Shown here: piece after piece, positions 1 to 35,058 of the stretch
Layout: the number at the start of each line of letters is the position of its first letter
Numbering within the stretch: the stretch's first letter is position 1
From: Firmicutes bacterium ADurb.Bin080
GTDB taxonomy: Bacteria > Bacillota > Clostridia > Christensenellales > DTU072
Assembly (NCBI GenBank): GCA_002070965.1
Contig: MWEH01000169.1
Location: forward strand, 1 to 41,652
DNA length: 41,652 nt
Direction of reading: 5' to 3'
Notes under the pieces: model-generated
What the model saw: only the letters and a program-made list of their open reading frames with translations
Database searches by the model: none
Told to the model about the DNA's origin: nothing
Position numbers and translations under genes: made by a program

Positions 1-2
1 AT

Positions 3-197
3 GATAAAATTGTTCTACAGATTGATTCGTATTTTGCAAGTAGTCAATTATGTAGCGTATGTGGGTATAAAAATGAAGGAGTTAAAAAGTTGTCTATCAG
101 AAAATGGGAATGTCCTGAATGCCACACTATTCACGGAAGAGATGATAATGCAGCTATGAACATATTAAATGAGGGGCTTAGATTATTGAGTACTTAA
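3..197 (+). CDS. tnpB: TnpB RNA-guided nuclease, C-terminal fragment
   Basis: This open frame enters from the left edge and ends at TAA 195-197, giving the last 64 residues of TnpB. It carries the zinc-finger pairs CSVC and CPEC, followed by RDDNAAMNI, the RuvC-III block whose Asp is one of the three catalytic acidic residues of TnpB and Cas12. The residue before that Arg is Gly where many relatives have Asp. The catalytic Asp itself is kept, so this end of the nuclease looks intact. TnpB is the omegaRNA-guided DNA nuclease that supports retention of IS200/IS605 elements. Whether the upstream part is complete cannot be judged. Confidence 0.85.
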
Positions 198-301
198 AAA
201 AGAATACTACTGTAGGGACTACAGGAAGTTACGCCTATGGAGATGGAGAATACGAAGTCTATGAAGTAGGAATCTCAACACTTTAGTGGTGAGAAGTTCA
301 A
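198..301 (+). ncRNA. Putative omegaRNA (reRNA) scaffold 3' part
   Basis: The 104 bases after the tnpB stop have no coding frame and end in the element's right-end hairpin. In characterised IS200/IS605 systems this segment, with the 3' part of tnpB, is transcribed as the omegaRNA, and the bases just past the element end act as the guide. Here the guide would begin at 302 and include the ribosome binding site and start codon of the isomerase gene. The assignment rests on position next to tnpB and on the hairpin. The 5' end of the RNA cannot be placed. Confidence 0.5.
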
Positions 302-311
302 GAGGTATAAA

Positions 312-1619
312 ATGAAGCATAGAATTAAACTTGGAGTTGTTTGTCTAACAAGAAACACTTTTGACTTTCAGGCTGCAAAAGATATGTATGACAAAGTGCT
401 TTTAGATTTGGAAAAGCTTGAGAACGTTGAAATTATCTCAATAAGAGAAACTGTAATGGAAACACCCGAATCAATAGATGCTGGGAGAGTATTTGCGGAA
501 AATTCAGTTGATGGGCTAGTTATTATAAGTGGGACATTTCATCTAGGACATCTTTTGCTGGAAATAAAAAAGACTTGCGACAAACCAATTCTTCTTTGGG
601 CGCTTCCAGAGCTTCCATATAATGGAGGAAAAATCCGACTCAACTCTGCTTGCGGAGTAAATCTAAATGCATCAAACTTAATTAAAAGTGGCATTAATGA
701 TTTTGTATATCATATCGGGTCTAAAATTGATGAAACTTGGGTAGACGCAATACGAATGATAGTTGCACTTCGAGGGAGCAGAATAGGTATCGTAGGTTAT
801 CGCGCACATGGTTTTTTCAATGTCGGAGTTAATGAACTGGCTCTTTACGGTAAGTTTGGAGTAATTGTTGATCACTATGAACTTTCCGATTTATACAATG
901 AAATTTCAACTGAAACTGAGCGTTATCTCGATAAATTAAATAGCACTTTTGTTTCTACTGAGGTGCCCCAAGAAAAAAAGGTTAAAGTCGCTTCTCTCGC
1001 CTCAGCTTTCAAGGTTTTCATGGAAAAGCGCAATCTTCAAGCTCTAGCTATAAGATGTTGGCCGGAATTTGCTGCAAATTTTGGAATCGCACCCTGTGCA
1101 TCAATGTCCCTAGTTCAGGATGATAACTATATTGTTGCTTGTGAAGGTGATATCGACTGCACTATAACTATGATTTGCCATCAAGCAGCGGGAGCAAATA
1201 AACCTTTTATGGCTGACATCAGTCAAGTTAATCTTGAGGAGAATTCCGCCCTTCTCTGGCACTGTGGAGTCGCTCCATGCTCTTTGCGAGATGATAAATC
1301 GGTCTGCACTTTAGATTCCTATCATGCAGCAGGCAAAGGTATGACTGCAGGGTTTGTTTTAAAAACAGGTGAAATAAGCGTAGCCCGTCTTGATTCAATT
1401 AATGGTAGTTATAGGCTTTTCCTAGAAAAGGGGACCTCCCTTCCAATGGACAAATTACTTACAGGAACTTACGCTAAGGTAGAGTTCTCTCACCCTATGA
1501 AAGAAGTCTTTGATAAAGTAGTTTACACAGGTATCGCACACCATGTCTCCATGGTGTATGGAGACTTTAACGATGTATTCAAAATCTTCGCCAGGTTGAA
1601 AAATATAGAAATACTGTAA
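312..1619 (+). CDS. L-fucose isomerase-like sugar isomerase (COG2407 type)
   Basis: This 435-residue protein resembles the short fucose/arabinose-isomerase-like family that interconverts aldoses and ketoses with a divalent metal. E. coli FucI is about 590 residues, so this is the shorter subfamily. Candidate metal ligands in the expected order are E252 (CWPEF), D280 (CEGDID) and H410/H411 (AHH). The ribosome binding site AGAGG at 301-305 lies 6 bases before ATG and starts exactly at the insertion-element boundary, so the native promoter has probably been displaced. It leads a plus-strand arm with a DUF4867 protein, a transporter and a GH31 glycosidase. From memory, isomerases of this kind accompany GH31 enzymes in sulfoquinovose clusters of Bacillota. 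The substrate here is inferred only to be the sugar released by that glycosidase. Confidence 0.75.
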   Translation: MKHRIKLGVVCLTRNTFDFQAAKDMYDKVLLDLEKLENVEIISIRETVMETPESIDAGRVFAENSVDGLVIISGTFHLGHLLLEIKKTCDKPILLWALPELPYNGGKIRLNSACGVNLNASNLIKSGINDFVYHIGSKIDETWVDAIRMIVALRGSRIGIVGYRAHGFFNVGVNELALYGKFGVIVDHYELSDLYNEISTETERYLDKLNSTFVSTEVPQEKKVKVASLASAFKVFMEKRNLQALAIRCWPEFAANFGIAPCASMSLVQDDNYIVACEGDIDCTITMICHQAAGANKPFMADISQVNLEENSALLWHCGVAPCSLRDDKSVCTLDSYHAAGKGMTAGFVLKTGEISVARLDSINGSYRLFLEKGTSLPMDKLLTGTYAKVEFSHPMKEVFDKVVYTGIAHHVSMVYGDFNDVFKIFARLKNIEIL

Positions 1620-1704: not shown

Positions 1705-2352
1705 ATGATAAGAGAATTAAGAGAAAAAAATCCCCATTTAAACATACAAACCTCCTATGAGTTCAGTCCCTTATATCGAAGGCTCGGAGGAGATTCTGCA
1801 GATGTTATTGCTTACTCAGAAATTTATGTGCCCAATTCGGAGGAAAATAAATATATTCCTTCTGATCCAAATTTGGAAAACATCCCTTTAATAACTAAAA
1901 TACAAAAAGATATATTCGACTATTCCAATATCCAAGCAGGATGGTGCTTTGGATCTGGCATTTCCATGAATGGAATGGAGTGGCATAAATCAAGTGAGGT
2001 AATAATTGCTTGTACTGACATGATTCTGTTTCTAGGCAATTTTGGGGATATAAAAAATGATGAATATGATAGTAAAAATGCTCTCTCTCTTTTTTTGAAA
2101 AAAGGAGAGATAATTGAATTATACCCTTTGACCCTTCACCTTGCCCCTATTCGCGTTTCAGGGCCTTTCAAAGCTGCAATAATTCTCCCCAAAGGAACAA
2201 ATCTCCCAAGGCCCGAAGGCATTGAGGGAAACTACAGAGCAATTAACAAATGGTTAATTGTTCATCCTGAAAACTTGAAGGCCGTTGCACAGGGAGCAAA
2301 AGTTGGGATAATCGGAAAGAACCTTTATGTAAATCCAATTATTGAGGAGTAA
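1705..2352 (+). CDS. DUF4867-family cupin-like protein
   Basis: This 215-residue soluble protein matches my recollection of the DUF4867 family. Its hallmark is WHKSSE at residues 93-98, with H94 and E98 as plausible metal ligands, followed by a second His in TLHLAP (H145). This gives a cupin-like pattern. No signal peptide or membrane segment is visible. The ribosome binding site AGGA stands 4 bases before ATG, and the gene follows the isomerase by 85 bases, so co-transcription is likely. DUF4867 proteins tend to sit beside fucose-isomerase-like genes. An epimerase, mutarotase or isomerase accessory role is possible, but no activity can be read from the sequence. Confidence 0.7.
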   Translation: MIRELREKNPHLNIQTSYEFSPLYRRLGGDSADVIAYSEIYVPNSEENKYIPSDPNLENIPLITKIQKDIFDYSNIQAGWCFGSGISMNGMEWHKSSEVIIACTDMILFLGNFGDIKNDEYDSKNALSLFLKKGEIIELYPLTLHLAPIRVSGPFKAAIILPKGTNLPRPEGIEGNYRAINKWLIVHPENLKAVAQGAKVGIIGKNLYVNPIIEE

Positions 2353-2375: not shown

Positions 2376-2550
2376 AACTAATCTAATTAATTTTCGCTAA
2401 TATATGGGAAGATGAAAGACGAATCTACTTTAATCTTATTAATTTTTTGTTGATAAAGGGAAAAATGAAAGACAAATCTACTTCAATCTAATTAATTTTT
2501 TGTTGATATAGGGGAAGATGAGGGACAAATATAAAGCAAATATAATAAAT
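2376..2550 (+). repeat. About 53-bp imperfect tandem repeats covering the transporter start
   Basis: The core (a)atctaattaatttt recurs at 2381, 2433 (atcttattaattttt) and 2486, and in degenerate form near 2539 inside the transporter gene. The spacing is 52-53 bases. Each interval also holds a GGGAA stretch followed by ATGA. Two decayed copies of the transporter's ribosome binding site and first codons therefore precede the real start at 2518. Copy 1 reads through to TGA after 13 codons and copy 2 meets TAA after 8. Confidence 0.8.
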
Positions 2551-3537
2551 TTTCTATTTATCGTAGGGATGATTGTCTCTTGGGCAACTTACTACATTAT
2601 TTCAAAATGGACGGTTGACTATACTGGTTCAGTCTTTCTAACTGGCCTTTTTTTAAGAGGGTCCGCGTTCATCTTTTTAACTATATACATATTTGTTAAA
2701 AAAGAGTTCAGGCATATTTTCAAGTTAGGGAAAGCAGGTTTTATATTACTTCTAATCGGGTTACTTGGGTATCTATTAGATTTATTTGCTAACCTTGGAT
2801 TCAGCCATGGAACAGTCAGTACTGGTACAGTGCTTTTAAAGCTAGATGTACTTATGGCTAACTTTGTTAGTGTAATAATAATAAAAGAAAAGCTCTTTTT
2901 ATCTGACTGGATTAGCACCATTATTATGATAATTGGAGTAATCCTCGTATTAGATATTGACTTTTCATCTATGACTTTTAATTGGTATGATCTCTTCTTC
3001 ATTCTCAGTGCAATGGCAGTAACAACCAATGCCTTCGTAATTAAATTTACTCAAAAGAAATTTAAAATTAACCAGGATATAATTGGATACTACAACAATT
3101 TTGTAGTAATGCTTCTTTTCCTTTTTACTGCACTAATTAGCGGAGATATTAGTACCATTTCGAATATCAATGCCCCTTACTGGTTCTACTTGTTAATTCT
3201 CTTAGGAGGCCTAGCTCAAGGGTTAATTTATGTCTTCTATTACCGAAATCTGAGAGTTTATGAGGTTTGGAAAGTTAAACTTTTTTTACTCTTTATTCCA
3301 ATAGTGAGTTCAATTATCGGATTATTCGCTTTTGGAGAGACCTTTTCATGGGTAAAAATTTCGGGTATCATTGTAATACTTACAGGTTCAATTGTTATAC
3401 TTCTTAGAGGTAAAATCAACCATAAAAGAATCCAAACAGCTGTGCTTTTTAACTCATCTGTTTTATCTACCGAAGATAATAACGAATCAAATAACGACAA
3501 ATATGATCCTCCTGCTGATGATTTAGAGGGGAAGTGA
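2518..3537 (+). CDS. EamA/DMT-superfamily membrane transporter
   Basis: This 339-residue protein is strongly hydrophobic, with about ten predicted membrane helices in two halves, the layout of EamA (drug/metabolite transporter) proteins. A charged cytoplasmic tail of about 40 residues ends in DDLEGK. DMT proteins move small metabolites, often as exporters. In this cluster it could export an end product or import the sugar. The GGGGAAG purine stretch abuts ATG with almost no spacing, so initiation may be inefficient. Two upstream copies of the same start region make the start less certain. The stop codon lies inside a duplicated copy of the next gene's ribosome binding site. Confidence 0.75.
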   Translation: MRDKYKANIINFLFIVGMIVSWATYYIISKWTVDYTGSVFLTGLFLRGSAFIFLTIYIFVKKEFRHIFKLGKAGFILLLIGLLGYLLDLFANLGFSHGTVSTGTVLLKLDVLMANFVSVIIIKEKLFLSDWISTIIMIIGVILVLDIDFSSMTFNWYDLFFILSAMAVTTNAFVIKFTQKKFKINQDIIGYYNNFVVMLLFLFTALISGDISTISNINAPYWFYLLILLGGLAQGLIYVFYYRNLRVYEVWKVKLFLLFIPIVSSIIGLFAFGETFSWVKISGIIVILTGSIVILLRGKINHKRIQTAVLFNSSVLSTEDNNESNNDKYDPPADDLEGK

Positions 3538-3626
3538 AAATGAGATTAGTAAAAGTATCAAAACGCAAATAGGTTTAATGCTTGAGATTTAGAGGAGAAG
3601 TGAAAATGAAATTAGTAAAAGATCAA
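3520..3626 (+). repeat. 66-bp-spaced duplication of the GH31 ribosome binding site and start
   Basis: The block gatttagagg(g/a)gaagtgaaaatga(g/a)attagtaaaag occurs at about 3520-3556 and again at about 3586-3622. The second copy holds the real GH31 start (ATG 3606). The first supplies the last codons and stop of the transporter gene. It also has a perfect-looking ribosome binding site with ATG at 3540 opening a ten-codon frame that ends at TAG 3570-3572. Confidence 0.85.
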
Positions 3627-5585
3627 GGAATATCTCTTTATTACAAAGACTTTCTTGTTTTTTCACACACTAGTGACAAGCCCTTTGTCACGGCGGATAT
3701 TTGGGAGAGCAAAGTTAAGCGCTTTCTTGGAAAATTTGAAGAAAAGGGAGAAATAATTGAAAAGATTGCTCTAACAGAATCGAATGTAATTAGTGAGACA
3801 GATAAACAAACTGTAATTGTTTTCAAAGAGGGAAGTATATCTTTGACTATCACATTTGAAGAAAAAGAAAATTATCTAAAGCTGTTTTTTGAATCAAAAA
3901 GTGATTGTGGTTTCTCCTTTATATTTCCAGCATATCCGGATGAAGGCATATTCGGAGGAGGAGAACAGTATCGTCAATTAAATCTAAAAGGTGAAAGAGT
4001 AGTTAACTTAGTCTCCGAGCACATTAAAGTAAAGCCTATTGCACAGAAAATTCTTTTTAAGAAATTATATAAACCCAAGAAGCATTCAGAGATATCTTCC
4101 TACTCTCCTATGTGCACATTTGTTTCGAGTAAAATTTATGCTATTAGATTTAACGTATCTTCATATGGAGTTTGTGACTTCTATAACTCATATAAATCCG
4201 TCTTTTCCTTCCAGATTTGCCCTAAAGAAGCTACCTTTTTGAAAGAAGAAACATTTGAAAATATAGCAGTTGCTCTAGCAAAAGACATTCCTAACAGACA
4301 ATATCTCCCAGCTTGGTGCTATGAAGGAATGATTTTGGGTGTCCAAGGAGGGAGAGAAATTGTTACAGAAAAAGCCCTAAAGATGTTAGACGCGGGAGCA
4401 AATATTTGTGGTGTATGGTGCCAGGAATGGTCGGGACAATACGTAACTGCCGCGGGAAAACAAGTTTATTGGAATTGGGAAGTAGATAAAGAAAGATACC
4501 CAGACCTAAAAAAAACCATCTCCTCTCTAAAAGAAAAAGGGGTTCATTTTCTCGCATATATTAACCCTTATTTGATTGTGGATGGCCCTATGTATAATGA
4601 ATGCAAAAATAAGGACTATTTAGTAAAACGAAAAGATGGATCAATATACCTTATTAAGTCAACCACCTTTGACGCTGGAATGATGGACTTAACAAATCCC
4701 GGAATGGTGTCTTATCTTAAAAATACTATAATCAAACACAATATGCTTGACCTCGGAATCGAAGGATATATGGCTGACTTTGGAGAATATCTCCCCCTTG
4801 ATTCAGTGCTTTTCTCGGGAGACCCAAAACTATTACACAATGAATGGCCTGTCATATGGGCAAGAATTAATAGAGAAGCTATCGAAGAAGCTGGGCTTTC
4901 TGATTCCGCCTTCTTCTTTACTAGATCTGGATATGATGGAGCGCAATCTTATTCTCCCATTATGTGGAACGGAGATCAACATACCGACTTTTCAATAGAT
5001 TATGGTATGCCTTGCGTTATGCCCGCCTCATTTAATTTAGGTTTTTCGGGATTGTGCGCAATTCACTCTGATGTTGGAGGTTTTATCAGCTTTGGACCTC
5101 TTAAACGGGATGCCGAGCTCTTTATTCGTTGGATGGAAATGAACACTTTTTCTCCCTTAATGCGCAGCCACGAAACTATTCGTCCGGATGTCAATTGTCA
5201 GTATGATGACAAATTTGTTCTTCCCCACACTGTCAATCTTACAAATATACACGCTAAACTTGCACCATATATAAAGCATGTTATGGAGGAAGCAAAAAGG
5301 GGAATTCCTACAATTAAACCTGATTTCTATTTAAATAATGACTTCAGTTCCCACCAAGATGAGTATTCATATTTCTTTGGAAATGATATTTTCGTGTCCC
5401 CGATAATACAAAAAGGGCAACTTAATAAGGAAGTTTATTTACCTGACGGAGATTGGCTTCATTTCTTCTCAAAAAAACAGTATTCAAAAGGGAAAAATAA
5501 TATTGAGTGCCCACTAGGGTGTCCTCCCGTTTTTTACCGAGCAGACAGTGCATTTGCTCCTTTATTCGCCTCAATAAAGATTTAG
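3606..5585 (+). CDS. GH31 alpha-glycosidase, sulfoquinovosidase-like with altered substrate pocket
   Basis: I start at ATG 3606, behind GAGGAGAAG, rather than at an in-frame TTG at 3582. This gives 659 residues against 678 for E. coli YihQ. No signal peptide is seen, so it should act in the cytoplasm. GH31 catalysis is intact: nucleophile D391 (MADFGEYLP) and acid/base D457 (WNGDQ). Similarity to YihQ is high along the barrel (GVQGG, WCQEW, FLAYINPY, PVFYRADS). From memory, YihQ grips the sulfonate of sulfoquinovose with Arg301, Trp304 and water-bound Tyr508. The aligned residues here are Q286, W289 and F493, while the two Gln of the QQRWY set remain as Q247 and Q273. A related alpha-glucoside altered at C6 is therefore likelier than a standard sulfoquinovoside. 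It closes the plus-strand arm. Confidence 0.85.
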   Translation: MKLVKDQGISLYYKDFLVFSHTSDKPFVTADIWESKVKRFLGKFEEKGEIIEKIALTESNVISETDKQTVIVFKEGSISLTITFEEKENYLKLFFESKSDCGFSFIFPAYPDEGIFGGGEQYRQLNLKGERVVNLVSEHIKVKPIAQKILFKKLYKPKKHSEISSYSPMCTFVSSKIYAIRFNVSSYGVCDFYNSYKSVFSFQICPKEATFLKEETFENIAVALAKDIPNRQYLPAWCYEGMILGVQGGREIVTEKALKMLDAGANICGVWCQEWSGQYVTAAGKQVYWNWEVDKERYPDLKKTISSLKEKGVHFLAYINPYLIVDGPMYNECKNKDYLVKRKDGSIYLIKSTTFDAGMMDLTNPGMVSYLKNTIIKHNMLDLGIEGYMADFGEYLPLDSVLFSGDPKLLHNEWPVIWARINREAIEEAGLSDSAFFFTRSGYDGAQSYSPIMWNGDQHTDFSIDYGMPCVMPASFNLGFSGLCAIHSDVGGFISFGPLKRDAELFIRWMEMNTFSPLMRSHETIRPDVNCQYDDKFVLPHTVNLTNIHAKLAPYIKHVMEEAKRGIPTIKPDFYLNNDFSSHQDEYSYFFGNDIFVSPIIQKGQLNKEVYLPDGDWLHFFSKKQYSKGKNNIECPLGCPPVFYRADSAFAPLFASIKI

Positions 5586-5589
5586 TGGA

Positions 5590-7095
5590 TCATTGTTTTT
5601 CTAGTTTTACTTCAGAGGAGCCGTCAGCCCAAAGCTCGGCTTCCTTTTTTCCTGTTGCGATTTCTATATCCTTCCTTTCATCTTCGCTTAAATTCTGCAA
5701 CGTGCCTGATAGTTTGAAACTATCGATTCCTTTAATAACGGAATCATATCTTTTCTTGTTAATTCTGTTCAGTAGAGCAAATACAAGGGTTATTGTCAAA
5801 AGAACAGCCGGGACAATTATAAATAGCCATTTAATCCCCGAAACAATCCCAGACTGAGCGTATGTTGCAGGATCAAAAGTATCCGATGAAGTTTTCAAAA
5901 TATTATATTCGTTTTGGTCAAACCCCATAGCTGATAATCCAAAACCTAAAATAAAGATTGATAGACCACTCGCTGCCTTCCTTAAAAAGGTGGTAATCCC
6001 ACTATAAACCCCTTCTCTTCTCTGTCCTGTTTGAATCTCATCTAGATCAAATATATCAGTAAGCATGGACCAAGTTGATAGATTTCCGGCAGAAGCACCA
6101 AGAGCGATTAATAGAGCACAAAGTATAAGCCAAATAATAGACGTGGTTGTATCAAAGAAAATAAAGATAAAACAAGTCAGGATCCATACAGGGATTCCTA
6201 TATATAGTGGGAATGCTTTACCTTTCTTATTTGCTATCGCTCCATGCATCAACATAAACAAAATTTGTGCTACAAGCAATACTCCCATCAAAAGTTCATA
6301 ATCTTTGTATTTCATAACAACTATATCTACATAAAAAATAAAAAGCGCCAAGACAAGATCGATTGCTATTTGAAAACTTAGGAAAATGCCTAAAAAGTTT
6401 CTGTATGGTTTATTTTTGAATACTGAAAGCCAATCCTTGATGGTAATCTTTTCTACTGGTGGAAGATCTTTCTTTTCCTTTGTTCCAAGATAAGCAAAAA
6501 GCCAGCCTAAACCAAATATCACCGCGAGAACAACAGCCATTACCAGATATCCGTATACTTGATTGGATCCAATCGTATCTCCGCCAACTCCTTTTATTAT
6601 CATCCCTGGGACTACCGCGCAAACTAGTGACGCGGCGCCTGACATCATCATTCTAATTGTCGTAAATCCAGTCCTTTCGTTGTAATCTGAAGTCATGTCC
6701 GAAAGTATGGCATTGTAAGGAACCATCACTATGGTGAATGCAGTACAGAAAAACATGTATGCAAACACATGATAAATAATTCTTCCGGTTACTCCGGGTA
6801 TACCAAAAGAATAAAACAACATAATAAAAGATAAGACCACTGGAATTATTCCAAACAAAAAGTAAATACGTCTTCTCCCAAATTTTGACCTTGTAGAATC
6901 GGAAAATCTACCCATTAACGGATCAGTGATGGCATCCCATAATTTCCCAGCAAATATTATTGCGGTTGTAGCAAGAACTGGTATCCCTTCCACTAACACC
7001 AGGAAGTTCATGTAGAGGAGGGAAAAAACTAAAAATGCTCCTCCCCCGTAAATATCACCCATTCCATAGCAAATCTTTGCTTTAATGTTTTTCAT
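5590..7095 (-). CDS. GPH-family (glycoside-pentoside-hexuronide:cation) sugar symporter
   Basis: This 501-residue protein has about twelve membrane helices. Its N-terminal signature D-x-x-DPLMGRFSD followed by SKFGRRR is typical of MelB/YihO/XynB-type GPH symporters, which couple Na+ or H+ entry to uptake of glycosides, pentosides or uronides. AAGGGGG precedes ATG by 8 bases. It is the last gene of the minus-strand arm, 73 bases after iclR, and its stop codon lies 4 bases from the GH31 stop on the other strand. As the only clear sugar-uptake gene of the locus, it is the best candidate importer of the GH31 substrate. YihO and YihP of the E. coli sulfoquinovose cluster belong to the same family. 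Confidence 0.85.
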   Translation of the reverse strand: MKNIKAKICYGMGDIYGGGAFLVFSLLYMNFLVLVEGIPVLATTAIIFAGKLWDAITDPLMGRFSDSTRSKFGRRRIYFLFGIIPVVLSFIMLFYSFGIPGVTGRIIYHVFAYMFFCTAFTIVMVPYNAILSDMTSDYNERTGFTTIRMMMSGAASLVCAVVPGMIIKGVGGDTIGSNQVYGYLVMAVVLAVIFGLGWLFAYLGTKEKKDLPPVEKITIKDWLSVFKNKPYRNFLGIFLSFQIAIDLVLALFIFYVDIVVMKYKDYELLMGVLLVAQILFMLMHGAIANKKGKAFPLYIGIPVWILTCFIFIFFDTTTSIIWLILCALLIALGASAGNLSTWSMLTDIFDLDEIQTGQRREGVYSGITTFLRKAASGLSIFILGFGLSAMGFDQNEYNILKTSSDTFDPATYAQSGIVSGIKWLFIIVPAVLLTITLVFALLNRINKKRYDSVIKGIDSFKLSGTLQNLSEDERKDIEIATGKKEAELWADGSSEVKLEKQ

Positions 7096-7168: not shown

Positions 7169-7924
7169 TTACTCCTGGGCTTCGTATCCTAGTTCATTTG
7201 ATATTCTTTTTGTAGTCTTTATTATTTCTCTTATAATTCTTTCTATTTTCGTTTCGTTCATTCTGCTTATCGGGCCAGATACACCTATTGAGTAATTACA
7301 TTCCCCTTTATTGTTAAAAATCGGCGCAGCAACACATCTGACATCCAGTGACAATTCCGCGTTGTCTATTGCGTATCCTTGATTTCTTATTTTATCTATT
7401 TCTTGAATCATTTCCTCTTTGTTTTTTACTGTGTTATGCGTATATATTTCATATTGGAGTTCTTCGAACATCCTCTCTTTTCTGACCTCGCTTGCAAATG
7501 CAACCAGACATTTTCCTACCGAAGAAGCATGCAGGGGCTCCGTAGATCCGATTTTTGCGTTTGCCATCAAAATACCTGATGCTGCTATTTGGTCTATTAC
7601 CACTGCCCTATTGTTTGATACCACACATAAATGAACCGATTCGCCAAGTATTTCGCTAAGTCTTTCCATGTGAGGACGAGATACACCCGCAGCACTTAAA
7701 CTGCTGTAATATCTATCTGCAAGTTTTAGAATAGCCGGGCCTAATTTATACTGAGCCGTATCAGGGTTTTTCTCTACAATGTTGTCAGGCATAAAGGTTT
7801 CCATTATTCTAAACGCCGTACTTTTATTAACATTTAGAGCTCCTGCTATCTCCGTAACCCCGGCACATTTTCTGGATGCGAGATACATAAGCGCATCCAC
7901 TCCTCTCTTCAAAGATTGACTCAT
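7169..7924 (-). CDS. IclR-family transcriptional regulator
   Basis: This 251-residue protein has an N-terminal winged helix (about residues 4-65, with NKSTAFRIMETF as the recognition helix) and a C-terminal effector domain typical of IclR (GKCLVAF, DNAELSLDVRCVAAPIF, GVSGP). IclR proteins bind a pathway metabolite and repress or activate the neighbouring catabolic operon. AAGGGGG stands 6 bases before ATG. It sits in the minus-strand arm between the RpiB-like gene and the symporter, so it most likely controls this locus. Candidate sites are the palindromes at 13581-13607 and 7110-7142. The upstream spacer is filled by 56-bp tandem repeats. Confidence 0.9.
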   Translation of the reverse strand: MSQSLKRGVDALMYLASRKCAGVTEIAGALNVNKSTAFRIMETFMPDNIVEKNPDTAQYKLGPAILKLADRYYSSLSAAGVSRPHMERLSEILGESVHLCVVSNNRAVVIDQIAASGILMANAKIGSTEPLHASSVGKCLVAFASEVRKERMFEELQYEIYTHNTVKNKEEMIQEIDKIRNQGYAIDNAELSLDVRCVAAPIFNNKGECNYSIGVSGPISRMNETKIERIIREIIKTTKRISNELGYEAQE

Positions 7925-7981
7925 TTAAATCCCCCTTACTATATATTTAGTTCAATTCCTCATGAAATCTGAGTTTTTGTT

Positions 7982-8125
7982 ATCCCCTCTTATCACCCAC
8001 TCGGATAAATACTCTTTTGCATCGAGCAAGTTTTTAATTTCCCCCTTATCACCCACTCGGATAAATACTCTGTTGCATCGAGCAGGCTTTTTATTTCCCC
8101 CTTATCAACCTACCCGATGCAACTT
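7982..8125. repeat. 56-bp tandem repeats in the spacer upstream of iclR
   Basis: The core ttatcacccactcggataaa starts at 7990 and 8046, and a shorter diverged copy (ttatcaacctacccgatgc) at 8102, so the period is exactly 56 bases. Two copies are near identical over about 50 bases. On the minus strand each unit carries TGATAAG(A/G)GGG, which resembles the iclR ribosome binding site. The first two also carry a short ATG frame (ATGCAA...GGGTGA) of nine codons. There is no spacer diversity, so this is not a CRISPR array. Confidence 0.85.
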
Positions 8126-8132
8126 TGTATTC

Positions 8133-8762
8133 TTACAAATAGTTTCCAATAATGAAATTCTGAAGCCTCTTGTCTTTCACTTCCCCTTGCACTAACTCTT
8201 TAAAATCAGGATAAGAAAAAATTGCCTTAAGAATTTCTTCATCTGTTTCCTGGAGAATCTCTTCCATACTCCTATGGGTATAGTTGCTTATTGCCTGAAG
8301 CCTTTCTCTACTCTGCTTTTGGCTGGCTTTTCTCGCTTCAGGATACCCTGCACCAAATTCATCCTGGAATAATTTATCAAAAATGATTTTCAGATTGAGA
8401 TTAGCAGCCCAACCAAAACCTTTGTTCAGCGGAAGAGATATACAATTCCCTCCGTTAATTTGGCTATATAGCCATGCATCTAGTGGATCAACTATTAATC
8501 CTGTGTATACACAGGGATACTGCATTGAAGCGATTAGAAATCCTTGACCAGTTCCACATCCTCCGACAACAAAATCCACAGCTCCAAGGTTTATAAGAAT
8601 TGCTGCCATCAAACTGGTATGAATGTAAGTTAATTCGGATGGGTTATTATCCCCCGCTTTCATTCCAACATTAAAAAGATCAAACCCCCTGTTTTCCAAT
8701 GCTTCCACTATCATAGGATTCTTGTCTCTAGCCGAAACCTCATTAATTATCGCTATTTTCAT
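8133..8762 (-). CDS. RpiB/LacA/LacB-family sugar isomerase, divergent
   Basis: This 209-residue protein has the family core GGCGTGQGFLIAS at residues 67-79, where C69 aligns with the catalytic Cys of RpiB (CGTGIG). GGNCISLP at 104-111 follows in place of the usual DANVLCLG strand. The family isomerises aldose and ketose phosphates (ribose 5-P, allose 6-P, galactose 6-P, erythrulose 4-P). This protein is longer than RpiB (about 150) and carries an extra helical C-terminus of about 60 residues. The conserved His/Arg phosphate-binding pattern of RpiB is not obvious, so a phosphorylated substrate should not be assumed. GGAGG lies 7 bases before ATG. It lies between the oxidoreductase and iclR genes in the minus-strand arm. 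Confidence 0.75.
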   Translation of the reverse strand: MKIAIINEVSARDKNPMIVEALENRGFDLFNVGMKAGDNNPSELTYIHTSLMAAILINLGAVDFVVGGCGTGQGFLIASMQYPCVYTGLIVDPLDAWLYSQINGGNCISLPLNKGFGWAANLNLKIIFDKLFQDEFGAGYPEARKASQKQSRERLQAISNYTHRSMEEILQETDEEILKAIFSYPDFKELVQGEVKDKRLQNFIIGNYL

Positions 8763-8821
8763 TTTTCATCCTCCATTTTTTTCCTTCTTATGCAAACGAT
8801 CTTGTAAATTGGAAAAATATC

Positions 8822-10018
8822 TTATTTTTTCTTCTTGAAGAAAATACTTAACACGCCCTTTTTCTTTGGAACTGGTTTATCCTCATAACTATCTAAGATA
8901 ATCTCAGAGTTCTTTTTTGAGGAGTCAATTGCGGCAAGTGCAAATTTCAGGACTTCTCTACCTTTCTCCCCCGTCAATATAGGATCTCTGTCATATTTTA
9001 TGCAATCTATAAAATCGTGGGTAGAATTAATAAACGCATCCTGCCAGTCACAAGGGTCATCCCTGAACTCGGTCATTTTCCCGTCCTTATACATTATGAG
9101 AGGAGCAACTGGGAGCATCTCAGCGGTACACCTAGTTAACCACAATATGCCCCTTGAACCAGTTATTTCCATTCTCTCATCGCATGTGTAATATTTTCCC
9201 TTGATATATAGGTCCTCGGAAGCCGTTATATCCCATACTCCGTATACTTTCTTGTCTTTATACTTCCACATCACAACTGCAGGAGAATCTTGGGTAACGC
9301 CTGGAAGAACAGGTGTTTCATCGATCCAGGCCGATACCTTTTCTACATCACCAATCAAGTCAATAAAAATTGAAAACTTATGGTACCCATCATCAAAAAC
9401 AACCGGGCCTCCTCCTGACAGTGTTTCATTCAATCTCCAAGTCCAGGATAACGGATCAACCTTCCAACCGGTCGGTGGCAGTTCAACTTCGGCTGCACCC
9501 CCCATTTTTGCTCTCATCTTAGCGGCTGGAACATTTATCGAACATAATCCCCCGTTATTCATTTTATATCTAACCCCCTTTATCTCCCCAATTTCTCCCT
9601 CTGCAATTAATTTTTTCGCTCTAAGATATGGGGGATAATGGACAAAATTTTCAAAAACTTTCAGTTTTACACCATTCTCCTTTGCCGCAGCAATCATTTT
9701 ATCGCATTCCTCAAGATTCATTGCCATAGGTTTTTGAACAGATACGTGTTTTTTTGCGTTACAAGCTTGGATTGTTAAAGCACAGTGCAAATGATGCGGA
9801 ACTAAAATTTCCACTCCTGTCACATCCGGGTCATTCAAAACATCCTCGTAGGTATCATATACTTTCTCGATACCATATTCCTTGGCAAAATCTTCAGCGG
9901 CAGTTTTTTTCTTGTCATAAACTCCGTAAAGAACTGCATCATCGCGATCTTTGTATCCGGCTACATGCAGTGTCGCTATCCTTCCACAACCAATTAGTAC
10001 AAATTTCATTTTTTCCAT
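8822..10018 (-). CDS. Gfo/Idh/MocA-family NAD(P)-dependent oxidoreductase
   Basis: This 398-residue protein has an N-terminal Rossmann fold with GCGRIA at residues 10-15 and the family's KP motif. Here the usual EKP is QKP (Q95, K96, P97). H213 in DDGYHKF is the likely catalytic His. The family oxidises or reduces sugar and inositol hydroxyls (inositol dehydrogenase IolG is one member) or catalyses NAD-dependent hydrolysis. GAGGAG precedes ATG by about 7 bases. The C-terminus is a Lys-rich tail (GVLSIFFKKKK), unusual for a soluble dehydrogenase. It sits in the minus-strand arm between the aldehyde dehydrogenase and the RpiB-like gene, suggesting keto-sugar formation before carbon-carbon cleavage. 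Confidence 0.85.
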   Translation of the reverse strand: MEKMKFVLIGCGRIATLHVAGYKDRDDAVLYGVYDKKKTAAEDFAKEYGIEKVYDTYEDVLNDPDVTGVEILVPHHLHCALTIQACNAKKHVSVQKPMAMNLEECDKMIAAAKENGVKLKVFENFVHYPPYLRAKKLIAEGEIGEIKGVRYKMNNGGLCSINVPAAKMRAKMGGAAEVELPPTGWKVDPLSWTWRLNETLSGGGPVVFDDGYHKFSIFIDLIGDVEKVSAWIDETPVLPGVTQDSPAVVMWKYKDKKVYGVWDITASEDLYIKGKYYTCDERMEITGSRGILWLTRCTAEMLPVAPLIMYKDGKMTEFRDDPCDWQDAFINSTHDFIDCIKYDRDPILTGEKGREVLKFALAAIDSSKKNSEIILDSYEDKPVPKKKGVLSIFFKKKK

Positions 10019-10083
10019 GTGACTTCTCCTCTATTTCCTTTCAAGATGAAGCATATGCGAGTATATATGATAAATTCTTTTGC

Positions 10084-10160
10084 TAATTTAATTTTTCAGT
10101 TATTTGTGAAATATTTCTTAGTTGTTTTAATCTTTCAGTTATTTGGGCAATATTTTATAT
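10084..10160. repeat. 39-bp imperfect tandem duplication at the end of the aldehyde dehydrogenase gene
   Basis: The segment ttaatttttcagttatttgtgaaatatttcttag is followed 39 bases later by ttaatctttcagttatttgggcaatattttatatag (cagttattt at 10097 and 10136). The second copy runs into the stop codon of the aldehyde dehydrogenase gene (TTA at 10155-10157 on the plus strand). The spacer therefore contains a decayed copy of that gene's end. No gene is visible in 10019-10154. Confidence 0.7.
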
Positions 10161-11657
10161 AGTCCCATCCCAAGTAGATACTTTTGTAGATTTCATTTCA
10201 TGTTCATCAAACCAATGGGAAGTTACTGATTTTGACTCGGTATAGAAACGATATGCATCTTTACCTAAGCAGTGCAAATCCCCGAAGAAACTGTCCTTAT
10301 GCCCCGAGAACGGAAAGACTCCTATTGGAACAGGAATTCCTACATTTATCCCGACCATTCCTGCGTGAGTGTTCTTTGCAAACTCTCTGGCATAATATCC
10401 GTTTTGGGTAAATATGACCGATCCATTTCCATACGGAGAATCGTTCATTATCTTAATTCCCTCGTCAAAATCCTTTACTCTCTTTATACATAACACGGGT
10501 CCAAATATCTCTTCTGTCCCAACGCTCATTTCCGGAGTAACATGGTCGAGTACTGTCGGGCCTAAATAAAACCCTTTTTCAAACCCGGAAACACTCACCT
10601 TTCTTCCATCCAAAGCAAGTTTTGCACCTTCCGATATCCCTTTTTCTATCCATGCAAGAACTGATTGCCTGTGTTCTTCTGAGTACACTGGGCCAAGCTT
10701 TGAACTCTTATCGTATGCAGGTCCAATTTTTAATTCCTTTGCTAGTTCCACAATCTTCGCAACCAATTGGTCAGCTATGCTTTCCTCTGCTACCACTACT
10801 GGAAGCGCCATACATCTTTCTCCAGCGCATCCGTATGCAGCGTTTATTATTCCTGCTGCAGTCCTATCAATTGGAGCATCCGCGAGCACAAGTGCATGAT
10901 TTTTTGCTTCACAAAGGGCTTGTACTCTCTTTCCGTGAGCAGCGCCAGTAGAATAGATATGCATCCCAACCTTTGTGGATCCTACAAATGAAATCCCTTT
11001 AATTGTTGGATTAGTAAGGAGCTCGGTGGTTACTTCTCTATCACAAGAAATGACATTCAAAACGCCATCAGGGAGCCCCGCTTCTTTATATAGTTCAGCA
11101 ATTCTGAGACTGGTAAGAGGTGTTGCTCCAGACACTTTCATAACAATAGTATTCCCGGCTGCAATGCAATTTGGGGTCATCCATCCCATTGGAATCATAG
11201 CTGGAAAATTAAATGGGGAGATGCCACAAAAAACTCCTATTGATTCTCTGTATAGGACTGTATCATATCCTTTTGATGCGTTCATGAGAGCATCACCTTG
11301 CATCAAAACAGGCATATTAATTGCAATTTCCGTTCCTTCGATTGCTTTTAGAACATCCCCTTTTGCTTCGCTATAGACTTTTCCGTGCTCAGTTGCAACG
11401 AGAATTGAAAGTTCCTCCAAATTTGCTTCAAGAAGTGCTTTTAATTTGTATAGAACCTGAACTCTCTTCACTACCGGAGTGTCCGACCATGCCGGGTAGG
11501 CAGCTTTTGCATTGTCAATGACTTCCCTGACTTCTTCAAGAGTAAGTCTTGGGCAATTTGCAATTTGTTCCCCGGTTGAAGGATTAAATACTTTGTAAAA
11601 TTTATCTGTAGCTGAATTCTTAAACTGATTATTGGTAAAATATTGTAAGGTTTTCAT
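10155..11657 (-). CDS. MmsA/IolA-like CoA-acylating aldehyde dehydrogenase
   Basis: This 500-residue protein is a full-length member of the methylmalonate/malonate semialdehyde dehydrogenase group, which oxidises an aldehyde with NAD+ and transfers the acyl group to CoA. The catalytic Cys is C282 in CAGERCMALP, and FVGST (224-228) and PFNFP (148-152) are family motifs. In the B. subtilis enzyme, as I recall, Arg124 and Arg301 (numbering with Cys302) hold the substrate carboxylate. Arg301 is kept as R281, but the residue 178 before the Cys is K104 instead of Arg. The carboxylate pocket may therefore differ. GAGAGG precedes ATG. It follows the ThDP enzyme by 61 bases, as expected if it takes the aldehyde that enzyme releases. 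Confidence 0.85.
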   Translation of the reverse strand: MKTLQYFTNNQFKNSATDKFYKVFNPSTGEQIANCPRLTLEEVREVIDNAKAAYPAWSDTPVVKRVQVLYKLKALLEANLEELSILVATEHGKVYSEAKGDVLKAIEGTEIAINMPVLMQGDALMNASKGYDTVLYRESIGVFCGISPFNFPAMIPMGWMTPNCIAAGNTIVMKVSGATPLTSLRIAELYKEAGLPDGVLNVISCDREVTTELLTNPTIKGISFVGSTKVGMHIYSTGAAHGKRVQALCEAKNHALVLADAPIDRTAAGIINAAYGCAGERCMALPVVVAEESIADQLVAKIVELAKELKIGPAYDKSSKLGPVYSEEHRQSVLAWIEKGISEGAKLALDGRKVSVSGFEKGFYLGPTVLDHVTPEMSVGTEEIFGPVLCIKRVKDFDEGIKIMNDSPYGNGSVIFTQNGYYAREFAKNTHAGMVGINVGIPVPIGVFPFSGHKDSFFGDLHCLGKDAYRFYTESKSVTSHWFDEHEMKSTKVSTWDGTI

Positions 11658-11718
11658 TTTTTCCTCTCATTAATCTATTTGTATTTGTTCTTTTTCTCTT
11701 TTCAAGTAAAGGAGAGAA

Positions 11719-13509
11719 TTACAAAGTCTCTTCTTTTATACTGTTTTCATATGTTTCTCTTTTTTCTGTCATATATGACGGAATTGGGACATCCCACCAT
11801 CCAAAGGCTTTTCCTCCGGTATACGGATATTCTCTGCTGACTTCGGAAACGATAATTGCAGGTTTATTCTTTCGGGTTGCTTCCTTCAGTGCCCCAGCGA
11901 AAGAATCTTCAGTATTCGCCTTATAAGCGTCTATTCCAAAAGCTTTCCCTATTTCATAAAAGTTGGGGGAATATGGTTTATTGTCCCTCTCAAAGTCATT
12001 TCCAAAGGCACAATCTTTCCCAAGAACATCCATCTGAAGATCTCTGATTGCCATCCAACCGCTGTTGTCGGCAAGAACTATTATGATTGGAATGTTGTAT
12101 TGAGCCATTGTAGAAAGCTCCTGCATAATCATCATAAAATCACCATCTCCCACTAACGCGACAACCGGAGAATCCGGGGAAGCAAGCTTTGCTCCCATTG
12201 CAGCAGGCACTGCCCATCCCATAGTGGAAAAACCACCTGTTGTAAGGTTACAATAAGGTTTCTTATATTCGTATTCCTGAAAGAGTTGTGCCTGAGTGTT
12301 TCCCGAAGACGTCGAGATTATCGTATTGTCGGGAAGGGTCTCGTTCATCACGCCAATCATCCCCGAAATCGTCATTTTTTCGGCTTTTAGTTCTCTCTTT
12401 CTATTCTTATACTTTTTCCAGTCGGCTTTAAGTGCTTCAATCTCCTTAAAATAGAGCTCCCTGCTCTTTTTTACAATATCAGCAGAGTTGAGTTTGTCCA
12501 ACACATCCCTCATATCAGCAACAATTCCTACATCTGCTCCGTAGTTTTTGCCAATTTCTGATGGATCTATATCAACATGTATCAGTTTCGTATCCGGGAA
12601 GTTAAAACTTACACCTTTGCGGTATGAACAAGTGGTCTCATCAGCAAACCTAGTTCCAAGTGCAAGTACTACATCAGCTGAACTACACACGCTTAAACCG
12701 ACCGGTGTGCCTTTCGATCCGGTATGGAAGCAATATAACGGGTGAGTTTCATCAACGGCCCCTTTTGCAGCCAGAGTAGTTACTACGGCAGCCCCCCATT
12801 TTTCAGCAAGAGCTAAAATCCTATCAGAAACACGAGCTTTTAAAGCCCCTCCTCCAACAACAATTACTGGTCTTTTTGCACCATTCATTATTTCTATGGC
12901 TCTGGAAATAGAGCTGCTATCTGCAGAAGGTAGGGAAGTTGTCTTATTCTTTTCCGGAGGCATAAGAGACACATTTGCATATTCCGCTTGAACATCCATA
13001 GGAAGAGTAACTACACAAGGTCCTGGCCTTCCACTTAACATCTGATTAAAAGCCCTGTGCACAATTTTCGGGAGTTGTATGGTGGCCTCTGCTCTCCAGC
13101 TTCTTTTACTTAGCGGCTCCAAACTTCTTACAATATTACTGTCTGCATATCTTTCAACTTCCTGTAATACTCCCACACCCTTCATTCTGACATGTGTGTC
13201 CCCACACAATTGCAAAAATGCGGTTGAATCAACATATGCCGTACCTAGTCCAATTGCAGTATTCAAAGATCCTGGGCCAATAGAGGCAAATGTAGCAAGA
13301 GGTTTTCCGGAAACCCGGTAATATCCATCGGCTATAGCTGTCGCAGTCTGCTCATGTTTTACCTGGATATACTTTATATTTCCTTCTCTTTCTTCCTTTC
13401 GTATTGCATCAAACAATCCAAGGACCCCGTGACCAGGAATTCCTAGTATGTAAGGGACCCCCTCCATTACTAATTGTTTTACAACTATTTCTCCGCCGGT
13501 TAGTTTCAT
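11719..13509 (-). CDS. ThDP-dependent enzyme, IolD/acetolactate-synthase-like
   Basis: This 596-residue protein has the three-domain ThDP fold: a PYR domain with catalytic Glu53 (KHEQTATAIADGY), a central domain with VVGGGA, and a PP domain with GDGDFMM ending in ADN, the Mg/diphosphate motif. GIPGHG near residues 24-28 and the C-terminal WWDVPIPSY recall IolD, the inositol-pathway enzyme that hydrolyses a cyclic 1,2-diketone. It is about 40 residues shorter than IolD (637 in B. subtilis). Acetolactate synthase or sulfoacetaldehyde acetyltransferase are less likely given these motifs and the neighbours. It is first in the minus-strand arm, with a consensus promoter at 13543-13571 and GGAGG 6 bases before ATG. 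It probably cleaves a keto or diketo sugar intermediate. Confidence 0.8.
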   Translation of the reverse strand: MKLTGGEIVVKQLVMEGVPYILGIPGHGVLGLFDAIRKEEREGNIKYIQVKHEQTATAIADGYYRVSGKPLATFASIGPGSLNTAIGLGTAYVDSTAFLQLCGDTHVRMKGVGVLQEVERYADSNIVRSLEPLSKRSWRAEATIQLPKIVHRAFNQMLSGRPGPCVVTLPMDVQAEYANVSLMPPEKNKTTSLPSADSSSISRAIEIMNGAKRPVIVVGGGALKARVSDRILALAEKWGAAVVTTLAAKGAVDETHPLYCFHTGSKGTPVGLSVCSSADVVLALGTRFADETTCSYRKGVSFNFPDTKLIHVDIDPSEIGKNYGADVGIVADMRDVLDKLNSADIVKKSRELYFKEIEALKADWKKYKNRKRELKAEKMTISGMIGVMNETLPDNTIISTSSGNTQAQLFQEYEYKKPYCNLTTGGFSTMGWAVPAAMGAKLASPDSPVVALVGDGDFMMIMQELSTMAQYNIPIIIVLADNSGWMAIRDLQMDVLGKDCAFGNDFERDNKPYSPNFYEIGKAFGIDAYKANTEDSFAGALKEATRKNKPAIIVSEVSREYPYTGGKAFGWWDVPIPSYMTEKRETYENSIKEETL

Positions 13510-13789: not shown

Positions 13790-14728
13790 TTAGCCCTGAT
13801 TTCCGCCGCCTTGTCCTTGATGTTGTTGTTTTCTTTCTTGAAGAGCAGCCTTTTGTTGGGTTTTCGCATTTTCCATAGCATCATGATATTGAGTTCTGAG
13901 TTGGGTCATCTGTTGAAGTAATTCAGCATTTTCCGTTGCGAGTAATCCATTCTTTTCTTCTAGTTGAGCATTAATTTCCCCGATTTGCTCTTCGGTCAGT
14001 TCAGGATTTTCCAGTTGCTCTTCAAGACCCTCTATATCGGCGAGCAATTGTGTTCTGACTGTGTTCTGAGCAATAAGAGCATCTCTATCGGTATGGAACT
14101 GTTGTCTCAAGCCCGCATTTACTGACTTATTCTTAGCCATGTGTGCATACTGTGTAGCAAGCTCGCTCATTGTCTTTCCTTTAAGATCATCTTCTGTCAC
14201 AGTGGGATCATTTTCCATGATCCTTGCCATCATTCTGACTTCGGCATTGCTCTTGCCAAGGGCAGATGCTTGCGCTGCATATTCGGACATATCTCTGTCT
14301 TCGACTGGACAATTTAAACCCTTAGCTTGCAATTTTTCTCTTACTCTGGTCTTAACTCTTTCTCTGATTTGAGCGCCAATACCCTCATCTTCGGTATCCA
14401 CAGATATCTCAATATCTTCAGTTGTCTCATCAAGGTAACCAGCCTCTTCGGCGACATCGAGAATCTCATCGATAGCTTCATCGAGCGTCATTCCTTCCAG
14501 CTCCGAATCTGCTAAAAGTATTTCGGCGTCCTCATTTACTGGGTAAACCGCCTCGACCACTCCTTCCGCATCCGTTACCATTTCCACTTCGGGGTTAATT
14601 GACAATGTTACATACGATTGGGCATACGCTTCTTCGGTCCCTGGGGTTGTCGTACACGCAACTGCTACTGCTGCGATTACTGCCACCGCCAAAACCAACA
14701 TTGTTATCTTCATTGCTTTTGTTTTCAT
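13790..14728 (-). CDS. Lipoprotein with RsgI-like domain and coiled-coil tail
   Basis: This 312-residue protein has a lipoprotein-type signal peptide with Cys25 (VAVACTT) as the lipidated residue. Residues 39-72 (YVTLSINPEVEM and after) match the extracytoplasmic middle domain of RsgI-type anti-sigma factors. The cytoplasmic anti-sigma domain and transmembrane linker of true RsgI are absent, so this is probably a surface sensor, binding or structural protein. Residues 80-200 are acidic and helical, and 225-300 are a Glu/Gln-rich coiled coil ending in QHQGQGGGNQG. GGAGG lies 7 bases before ATG. It is divergent from the giant surface protein and has its own terminator at 13704-13730. Confidence 0.7.
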   Translation of the reverse strand: MKTKAMKITMLVLAVAVIAAVAVACTTTPGTEEAYAQSYVTLSINPEVEMVTDAEGVVEAVYPVNEDAEILLADSELEGMTLDEAIDEILDVAEEAGYLDETTEDIEISVDTEDEGIGAQIRERVKTRVREKLQAKGLNCPVEDRDMSEYAAQASALGKSNAEVRMMARIMENDPTVTEDDLKGKTMSELATQYAHMAKNKSVNAGLRQQFHTDRDALIAQNTVRTQLLADIEGLEEQLENPELTEEQIGEINAQLEEKNGLLATENAELLQQMTQLRTQYHDAMENAKTQQKAALQERKQQHQGQGGGNQG

Positions 14729-33972: not shown

Positions 33973-34001
33973 TTGCTAAAACTCACATTGTAAAATATAA
34001 T
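33973..34001 (+). promoter_or_regulatory. Promoter of the fructokinase-GH32 pair
   Basis: TTGCTA (33973-33978) and TATAAT (33996-34001) are separated by 17 bases. The start codon follows 26 bases later, behind GAGGGAGGG. Confidence 0.6.
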
Positions 34002-34027
34002 TGACTTATAGGTATGAGGGAGGGAAC

Positions 34028-34942
34028 ATGTTTTATACAATTGGTGAAGCACTTATCGATTTTTTACCCGAAGGAAACGGCTATATCCCTGTCACTGGAG
34101 GAGCTCCTTTAAATGTTGCCGCTTGTATTGCAAAATTAAAAGGCAGTTCTCATTTTATTGGAATGGTTGGAAATGATCTTTTTGGAAAAAGAATCAAAGC
34201 CGACCTTGAAAAAGAACAGGTTGGGACGGAATACTTATATTTTACAGACATTGCAAATACTGCCCTCGCCTTTGTAAGTTTAGATAAATCTGGAGAAAGG
34301 GAGTTTTCTTTTTACAGAAAACCCTCCGCAGATATGTTTCTTGACACCGAACATGTAAAAAATATTCCTTTCAAGAATGGGGACGTTTTACATTTTTGCT
34401 CTGTGGACTTAATAGATATGCCCGTAAAACAAGCTACGAAATTCGCCATTTCTTCCTGCAAAAAAGCTGGGGGGATAATATCTTTTGACCCAAATATCCG
34501 TTTGTCTCTTTGGGATAACCACGAAGAGTATAAAAATACAATTCTAGAGTTTTTGCCAACCGCTGACATAGTCAAATTATCCGAAGATGAAATCCCTTTT
34601 ATTTTAGGAAACATGTCAAAAGAAGATGCAGCCAAAGAACTTTTAAAAACAGCAAAGGAAGTCGTAATTACTCTGGGCTATAGAGGAAGTATTCTGTACA
34701 CACAAGAAATGTCCATTAAGCAAAAACCCCTTCGAATCCGCTGTGTAGATACAACTGGTGCCGGAGATACTTTTATTGGTACTTACCTTAGATATCGCGC
34801 AATTTCTTCTCTGGAAAATGCTCTCAAACTAGCAAGCATAGCCTCTGCTATAGTTTGCACAAAAAAAGGTGTTATGAGTGCTCTTCCAACCGAAGAAGAG
34901 GTCTTTAGTGTACTACTTAAGGATGAGTTTAATGTCGTTTGA
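34028..34942 (+). CDS. PfkB-family fructokinase
   Basis: This 304-residue protein starts at ATG 34028 behind GAGGGAGGG. An in-frame TTG at 34001 overlaps the -10 box and is rejected. Ribokinase-family motifs are GGAPLNVA (24-31) near the substrate site and GAGDTF with catalytic D247 near the ATP/anion hole. Bacterial fructokinases of this size (ScrK/FrkB type) phosphorylate free fructose to fructose 6-phosphate. The next gene, 116 bases downstream, is a GH32 sucrose/fructan hydrolase, which supplies fructose. A 2-keto-3-deoxygluconate kinase is the main alternative, but the GH32 context favours fructokinase. Confidence 0.87.
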   Translation: MFYTIGEALIDFLPEGNGYIPVTGGAPLNVAACIAKLKGSSHFIGMVGNDLFGKRIKADLEKEQVGTEYLYFTDIANTALAFVSLDKSGEREFSFYRKPSADMFLDTEHVKNIPFKNGDVLHFCSVDLIDMPVKQATKFAISSCKKAGGIISFDPNIRLSLWDNHEEYKNTILEFLPTADIVKLSEDEIPFILGNMSKEDAAKELLKTAKEVVITLGYRGSILYTQEMSIKQKPLRIRCVDTTGAGDTFIGTYLRYRAISSLENALKLASIASAIVCTKKGVMSALPTEEEVFSVLLKDEFNVV

Positions 34943-35058
34943 CCTGGCTTTCCCTTTACTCTTAGATTAAATCTTAATAAACTTAAAAAGGCTTTGTCAC
35001 ATTCAGTATACTTGTTCCTCTTTAAGCCTTTCTCAAAATCGGCTTACCAGGAGATCCC

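Follow-up and report, generated by a model that had tools for sequence, protein, structure and literature searches.

A YihQ-type GH31 enzyme with glutamine at the sulfonate-binding arginine position in a probable sulfoquinovose-degradation operon of a Firmicutes bacterium

Sulfonate recognition in the sulfoquinovosidases (SQases) of glycoside hydrolase family 31 (GH31) goes with a QQRWY or KERWY signature, which in YihQ includes the sulfonate contact Arg301. The window under study, a stretch of 41,652 nucleotides from Firmicutes bacterium ADurb.Bin080, encodes a GH31 protein that lacks this signature and reads QQQWF. From the loss of the arginine, an initial annotation of this DNA had argued for a substrate with a neutral or differently charged group at C6. 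What, then, does such an enzyme cleave, and is the altered sulfonate site the oddity of one protein or the property of a lineage? The analysis presented here indicates that it is most likely a variant of the GH31 SQases that still acts on sulfoquinovosides. In the open-access literature, covered by motif names and by sulfonate binding, no description was found of GH31 SQases with glutamine at position 301 (hereafter Gln-type, as opposed to Arg-type), and we know of no such enzyme that has been assayed.

Family placement and active site

The open reading frame starts with an ATG at 3606, an AGGAG ribosome-binding site lying directly 5′ of it, and its stop codon ends at 5585 (Table 1). Its product scores 614.7 bits against the NCBIfam YihQ model PRK10426 (cut-off 553), is also assigned to GH31 by Pfam, and has only SQases as its nearest solved structures by sequence. 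An AlphaFold model computed with the window protein and 44 relatives as input (mean pLDDT 94.1, pTM 0.94) retrieved with Foldseek, as its top matches, every solved SQase (8R56, 5OHT, 6PNR, 5OHY, and 5OHS; TM 0.91–0.95, rmsd 2.4–3.0), the TM falling to about 0.73 for other GH31 enzymes. Profile, fold, and a tree with outgroups all place the protein in the YihQ subfamily; the initial annotation, too, had put it next to YihQ.

Residues were mapped by an alignment with E. coli YihQ, the B. megaterium SQase (8r56), and the A. tumefaciens SQase that reproduced the YihQ numbering exactly. D391 and D457 align with the YihQ nucleophile and acid/base, D405 and D472; Q286 and F493 occupy the positions of Arg301 and Tyr508; and Q247, Q273, and W289 correspond to the retained Q262, Q288, and W304, so that each residue had been correctly named at the outset. 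The local anchors are equally sound, with GKQVYWNW facing GKRVMWNW and 36 residues in both cases between the acid/base Asp and the aromatic residue of GG(Y/F). With the known GH31 SQases (E. coli YihQ, the A. tumefaciens SQase, E. rectale SftG, and B. megaterium 8R56), the window enzyme shares the Asp pair, the fold, the equivalents of Gln262, Gln288, and Trp304, and the pathway neighbourhood, but it is only about 32–36% identical to them and differs at the positions of Arg301 (now Gln), Tyr508 (Phe), Glu369 (Thr), and Asn474 (His) as well as in one loop (EH-x8-K in place of GVGRxK).

Table 1. Coordinates of the operon genes and of the GH31 residues discussed (positions in the window)
Feature	Position	Strand	Basis
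L-fucose-isomerase-like protein, divergent (W-type) relative of the sulfoquinovose isomerase SftI/SqvD	312..1619	+	profiles, comparison, context
DUF4867 cupin (SftX/SqvB-like)	1705..2352	+	profile, alignment
EamA/DMT transporter, ortholog of that in sulfo-TK clusters	2518..3537	+	profile, context
YihQ-family GH31 alpha-glycosidase, 659 aa, motif QQQWF	3606..5585	+	ORF, Pfam, NCBIfam, alignment, Foldseek
H139 to K148, EH-x8-K loop of the N-terminal domain	4020..4049	+	alignment, motif counts, model
Q286 codon, at the YihQ Arg301 position	4461..4463	+	alignment
T353-T354 (TTF motif), at YihQ G368-E369	4662..4667	+	alignment
D391 codon, catalytic nucleophile (YihQ D405)	4776..4778	+	alignment
D457 codon, acid/base (YihQ D472)	4974..4976	+	alignment
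H459 codon, two residues past the acid/base, at YihQ N474	4980..4982	+	alignment
F493 codon, at the YihQ Tyr508 position	5082..5084	+	alignment
GPH/MFS_2 sugar symporter, convergent with GH31	5590..7095	-	profiles, context

Distribution of glutamine at position 301 and its companion changes

Genome sets of the family, order, and phylum, together with 80 named contigs, supplied the relatives of the enzyme. Position 301 is Gln in 90 and Arg in 12 of the 102 distinct near-full-length sequences, a ratio biased by the seeding of the collection with the window protein. Of the 396 genomes sampled across the order, 24 encode a YihQ-type GH31, which is Gln-type in 23 and Arg-type in one (G768). When an Arg-type protein served as the seed for a sample of the phylum, four Arg-type and three Gln-type genomes came up, the window's own among them. 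Gln at 301 is common to a large group and is not peculiar to the window protein, and Phe at 508 marks a sub-clade within it. The QQQWF sequences form a clade of their own (53 rows, SH-aLRT 99; one member reads EQQWY), which settles a check proposed in the initial annotation; QQQWY sequences are scattered across several branches, and the Arg-type sequences make up one clade, in which L158 is the only Gln-type member. Since the outgroups sit on long branches and the root is uncertain, either Arg or Gln may be ancestral. In a survey of the rumen, about half or more of the yihQ amplicons fell on a long branch (PMC13219744); these may be candidates for Gln-type enzymes.

The exchange of the arginine is part of a broader switch. 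Nine alignment columns change together, namely H139 (YihQ Q153), K148 (Y162), Q286 (R301), D294 (N309), T353 (G368), T354 (E369), M359 (V374), H459 (N474), and S516 (T531), and all of these except Q286 go beyond the residues considered at first. In 89 distinct Gln-type sequences, the N-terminal domain has an EH-x8-K pattern, residue 369 is non-acidic, and residue 474 is His, whereas in 12 of 12 Arg-type sequences a GVGR(N/D)K loop goes with an acidic residue 369 and residue 474 is never His. Gln-type enzymes thus have EH-x8-K where the Arg-type has the E(Q/P)GVGR(N/D)K loop; L158 and two Arg-type sequences, all of which keep the Arg-type loop, contain a match to the bare pattern as well. In the model of the window enzyme, this loop region contains a short helix (142–150) at lower confidence.

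As the simplest reading, these coordinated gains fit a rebuilt sulfonate or substrate pocket, in which the Arg-Glu charged pair would have been replaced (Arg301 by Gln, Glu369 by Thr) and the exchanged EH-x8-K loop would supply new cationic residues; K148 and the new histidines, including the one at 474, probably take over the contact with the sulfonate anion. The switch is, however, not all-or-none. L158 (9153–11195) has Gln at 301 together with an Arg-type loop, its residue 369 being Ala; in L125/G321, represented by partial genes, Gln at 301 goes with the related loop EQGIGRGRD and residue 369 is Asp. A strict coupling of Arg301 and Glu369 was rejected in favour of a strong tendency: the 12 Arg-type and all main Gln-type sequences fit it, but G321 pairs Gln with Asp.

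The operon, its relatives, and a dispersed pathway

The GH31 gene closes an operon (isomerase, DUF4867, EamA, GH31) that matches the clusters of the sulfoglycolytic transketolase (sulfo-TK) pathway and, like those of its relatives, is placed among genes of sulfoquinovose (SQ) degradation. In the DUF4867 protein, alignment shows the E, H, E, H motif with which B. megaterium 9GYY binds metal to be conserved, the EamA protein is likely to be a sulfonate exporter, presumably in the role of SqwE, and the convergent symporter belongs to the same family as the symporter beside most Gln-type GH31 genes. The type of transporter (ABC or GPH) was considered as a discriminator between Arg- and Gln-type enzymes and set aside; Gln-type genes often lie beside a GPH symporter, but too few Arg-type loci were sampled for a comparison, and a GPH-type permease also accompanies YihQ in E. 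coli.

Loci of the relatives were surveyed by searching the six-frame translation of every locus with profiles that had been built from clustered neighbours and named by Pfam; loci with at least 7 kb on each side of the gene were counted as well flanked. QQQWY loci combine GH31 with a transaldolase, a reductase of the 3-hydroxyisobutyrate-dehydrogenase type (SLA-reductase-like), and an SftI-like isomerase, mostly together with DUF4867, TauE, ROK, and GPH genes, which is the layout of sulfofructose transaldolase (sulfo-TAL/SFT) clusters (PMC11968277). QQQWF loci contain GH31, GPH, SqvD, a split transketolase, RpiB, Fe-ADH, EamA, ROK, and DUF4867, which is the layout of sulfo-TK clusters (PMC9594981, PMC12890257). 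Pathway genes are present in 22/23 well-flanked QQQWY loci (a transaldolase in 18) and in 20/25 well-flanked QQQWF loci (a split transketolase in 14 and the isomerase in 19). With the sulfo-TK clusters, the window shares a SqvD-like isomerase, DUF4867, EamA, GH31, and GPH, to which relatives add RpiB, Fe-ADH, ROK, and a split transketolase. The window sub-clade differs from them in its divergent isomerase and in having no clustered transketolase, and the SqwI- and SqwF-like genes of the window's genome lie on other contigs. The sulfo-TAL/SFT clusters, for their part, carry a Gln-type (QQQWY) GH31 with SftI, DUF4867, GPH, and ROK, whereas the window has no transaldolase or SLA-reductase-like gene.

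In full, the cluster of the window sub-clade comprises RpiB, Fe-ADH, ROK, isomerase, DUF4867, EamA, GH31, and GPH without a transketolase. Its RpiB, Fe-ADH, EamA, and GH31 are 45–59% identical to their counterparts in full sulfo-TK clusters. The window isomerase is only 24–28% identical to the usual SqvD/SftI, as compared to 54% between the isomerases of sulfo-TK and sulfo-TAL clusters, and it scores 219.9 bits against the SftI model, whose cut-off of 700 is also missed by the usual sulfo-TK and sulfo-TAL isomerases (about 400 bits). Three observations nonetheless lead us to read this W-type protein as, most likely, an alternative SQ isomerase, an assignment made by context. An isomerase 64% identical to that of the window occurs in G768 (L242) with a QQRWY GH31, GH188-like and ABC genes, a split transketolase, RpiB, and DUF4867; intermediate forms occur in the sulfo-TAL clusters L071, L086, and L090; and a YihQ-type GH31 is found in 14 of the 15 genomes of the order set that have a W-type isomerase as against 24 of 396 overall (hypergeometric probability about 1e-18, uncorrected for relatedness). 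In G768, an Arg-type GH31 serves the same pathway genes as the Gln-type does elsewhere. The GH31 gene of G321 also adjoins an isomerase of W-type appearance.

The remaining pathway genes are spread over the window's genome, four contigs in all. The RpiB gene (SqwI-like, LacAB_rpiB) lies on C156 and adjoins the isomerase gene in the sister genome G024, while C105 carries the Fe-ADH (SqwF-like), a ROK gene, and a second copy of the GPH symporter; both SqwI and SqwF of the sulfo-TK pathway are accordingly represented. An IS200/IS605 insertion separates rpiB from the isomerase gene and broke the assembly, as judged from the C-terminal tail of a TnpB-like protein that opens the window (1–200) and the start of an IS200-type TnpA that ends C156 right after the RpiB gene (L210 2136–2295; both names come from reading of the translations). 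A dedicated split transketolase, SqwGH, is absent from the window; the split transketolase on C109 looks like a general enzyme, since 36 of the 40 genomes of the family have relatives of it, whether or not they encode the GH31.

In the proposed route, an SQ glycoside such as sulfoquinovosyl glycerol would enter through the GPH symporter, whose substrate and direction are presumed, and SQ would be released by retaining hydrolysis, with the aligned D391 and D457 acting as in YihQ. The isomerase and DUF4867 would convert SQ into sulfofructose; two transketolase steps, probably carried out by the general enzyme, would follow with the RpiB-like SqwI isomerase acting between them; and sulfoacetaldehyde would be reduced by the iron-ADH SqwF to a C2 sulfonate, which the EamA protein may export. 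Taken as a whole, the explanation that the window encodes a retaining alpha-sulfoquinovosidase-type GH31 of the Gln-type branch, with a rebuilt pocket, feeding a dispersed pathway of the sulfo-TK type, is one that we hold to be fairly probable.

Two further candidates for the pathway were discarded. A Gfo/Idh dehydrogenase (8822–10018) as a hidden second SQase of the GH188 type has other oxidoreductases as its best matches, and neither 8QC2 nor 8QC3 is among the 60 matches listed. A ThDP enzyme (11719–13509) as a substitute transketolase accompanies GH31 only within the same genus (G024) and not in other transketolase-less clusters. Both genes belong to an operon (7169–13509, minus strand) of an IclR regulator, a PRK09273-type RpiB-like protein, the Gfo/Idh dehydrogenase, a CoA-acylating MMSDH-type aldehyde dehydrogenase, and the acetolactate-synthase/IolD-like ThDP enzyme, which occurs as a set only in G024 among the fetched loci and whose substrate is possibly a cyclitol or a sugar acid. 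The rest of the window includes a gene for a repeat protein of 4,295 aa, with domains of the InlB B-repeat and Listeria-Bacteroides repeat types (15116–28003, plus strand), which adjoins one for an RsgI-like anti-sigma factor (13790–14728, minus strand), and a PfkB kinase gene followed by a GH32 fructosidase gene (34001–36492, plus strand), likely a pair for sucrose or fructan utilisation.

Alternative readings and significance

Does the rebuilt pocket bring a new specificity? That the Gln-type enzymes make up a GH31 class with a function of its own, acting on another SQ conjugate than the Arg-type or binding the sulfonate through differently arranged cationic groups and so accepting other conjugates, is a tentative proposal and on the whole doubtful. 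Unlikely, too, is a division of labour in which the Gln-type would cleave SQ conjugates that the Arg-type handles poorly (with another aglycone, or acylated or otherwise modified SQ), the new His and Lys serving the aglycone side. In its favour, three clusters (L027, L033, and L074) hold both a QQRWY and a Gln-type GH31, which suggests that the two are not redundant or interchangeable and makes different SQ conjugates possible; H459 follows the acid/base by two residues, and the whole N-terminal loop has been exchanged; and two yihQ copies are reported in some organisms (PMC13219744). The Gln-type enzyme is, however, nearly always the sole candidate SQase of its cluster and usually the sole GH31 of the well-flanked loci, and must therefore be able to feed the pathway alone. 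Of the 107 loci, likewise, no more than 6 contain Gfo/Idh relatives (GH188 superfamily). The one relative that proved SqgA-like, with 8QC2/8QC3 as its nearest solved structures, adjoins an Arg-type GH31. It lies in the sulfo-TK cluster L242 (G768:C3:8790-28789), where a QQRWY GH31 and a GH188/SqgA-like protein stand side by side; GH188 has been reported from clusters without GH31 SQases.

The substrate first proposed for the enzyme, a glycoside whose C6 group is neutral or carries a different charge (glucosyl, quinovosyl, or glucuronosyl) in a cluster degrading that sugar, is distinctly improbable. The charged sulfonate contact is indeed lost, the window sub-clade does combine a divergent isomerase with the lack of a local transketolase, and genes for DUF4867 and fucose-isomerase-like proteins are also paired in clusters for non-sulfonated sugars (PMC11968277). 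Against this, the same Gln is found in enzymes embedded in complete sulfo-TAL and sulfo-TK clusters, the W-type isomerase recurs beside the Arg-type GH31 of G768 and has related forms in sulfo-TAL clusters, and the cluster contains neither a kinase nor an aldolase of a pathway for neutral deoxysugars. The Gln-type group has moreover gained one Lys and two His that are conserved and putatively located in the pocket, which are the kind of substitution that the initial annotation itself had named as speaking against its idea. Its kinship with YihQ, the replaced sulfonate Arg and Tyr, and the QQQWF clade thus stand, but the step from the lost arginine to another C6 group is left unsupported. The loss of two motif residues might suggest an enzyme that is degenerate or relaxed and has little activity left. 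This is scarcely credible, given an Asp pair intact in every aligned relative spanning that region, 51–57% identity among family members, intact frames, and a conserved operon position.

The preferred reading, a Gln-type SQase with a rebuilt pocket, has a counterpart in another SQase family, in which a sub-clade altered at the sulfonate-contact position is also found in sulfo clusters. Fold and mechanism are unrelated there, and the contact is a main-chain amide, as opposed to the side-chain Arg lost here.

The Arg-containing motif is used to recognise SQases, and the arginine does not appear to be a safe marker. A large branch of gut and rumen bacteria has YihQ-type enzymes without it in complete SQ pathways, and annotation based on the motif would miss or misname them; a divergent type of isomerase appears tied to the same pathway. 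If the Gln-type branch is a distinct class, bacteria with both types would split the plant sulfolipid pool between them.
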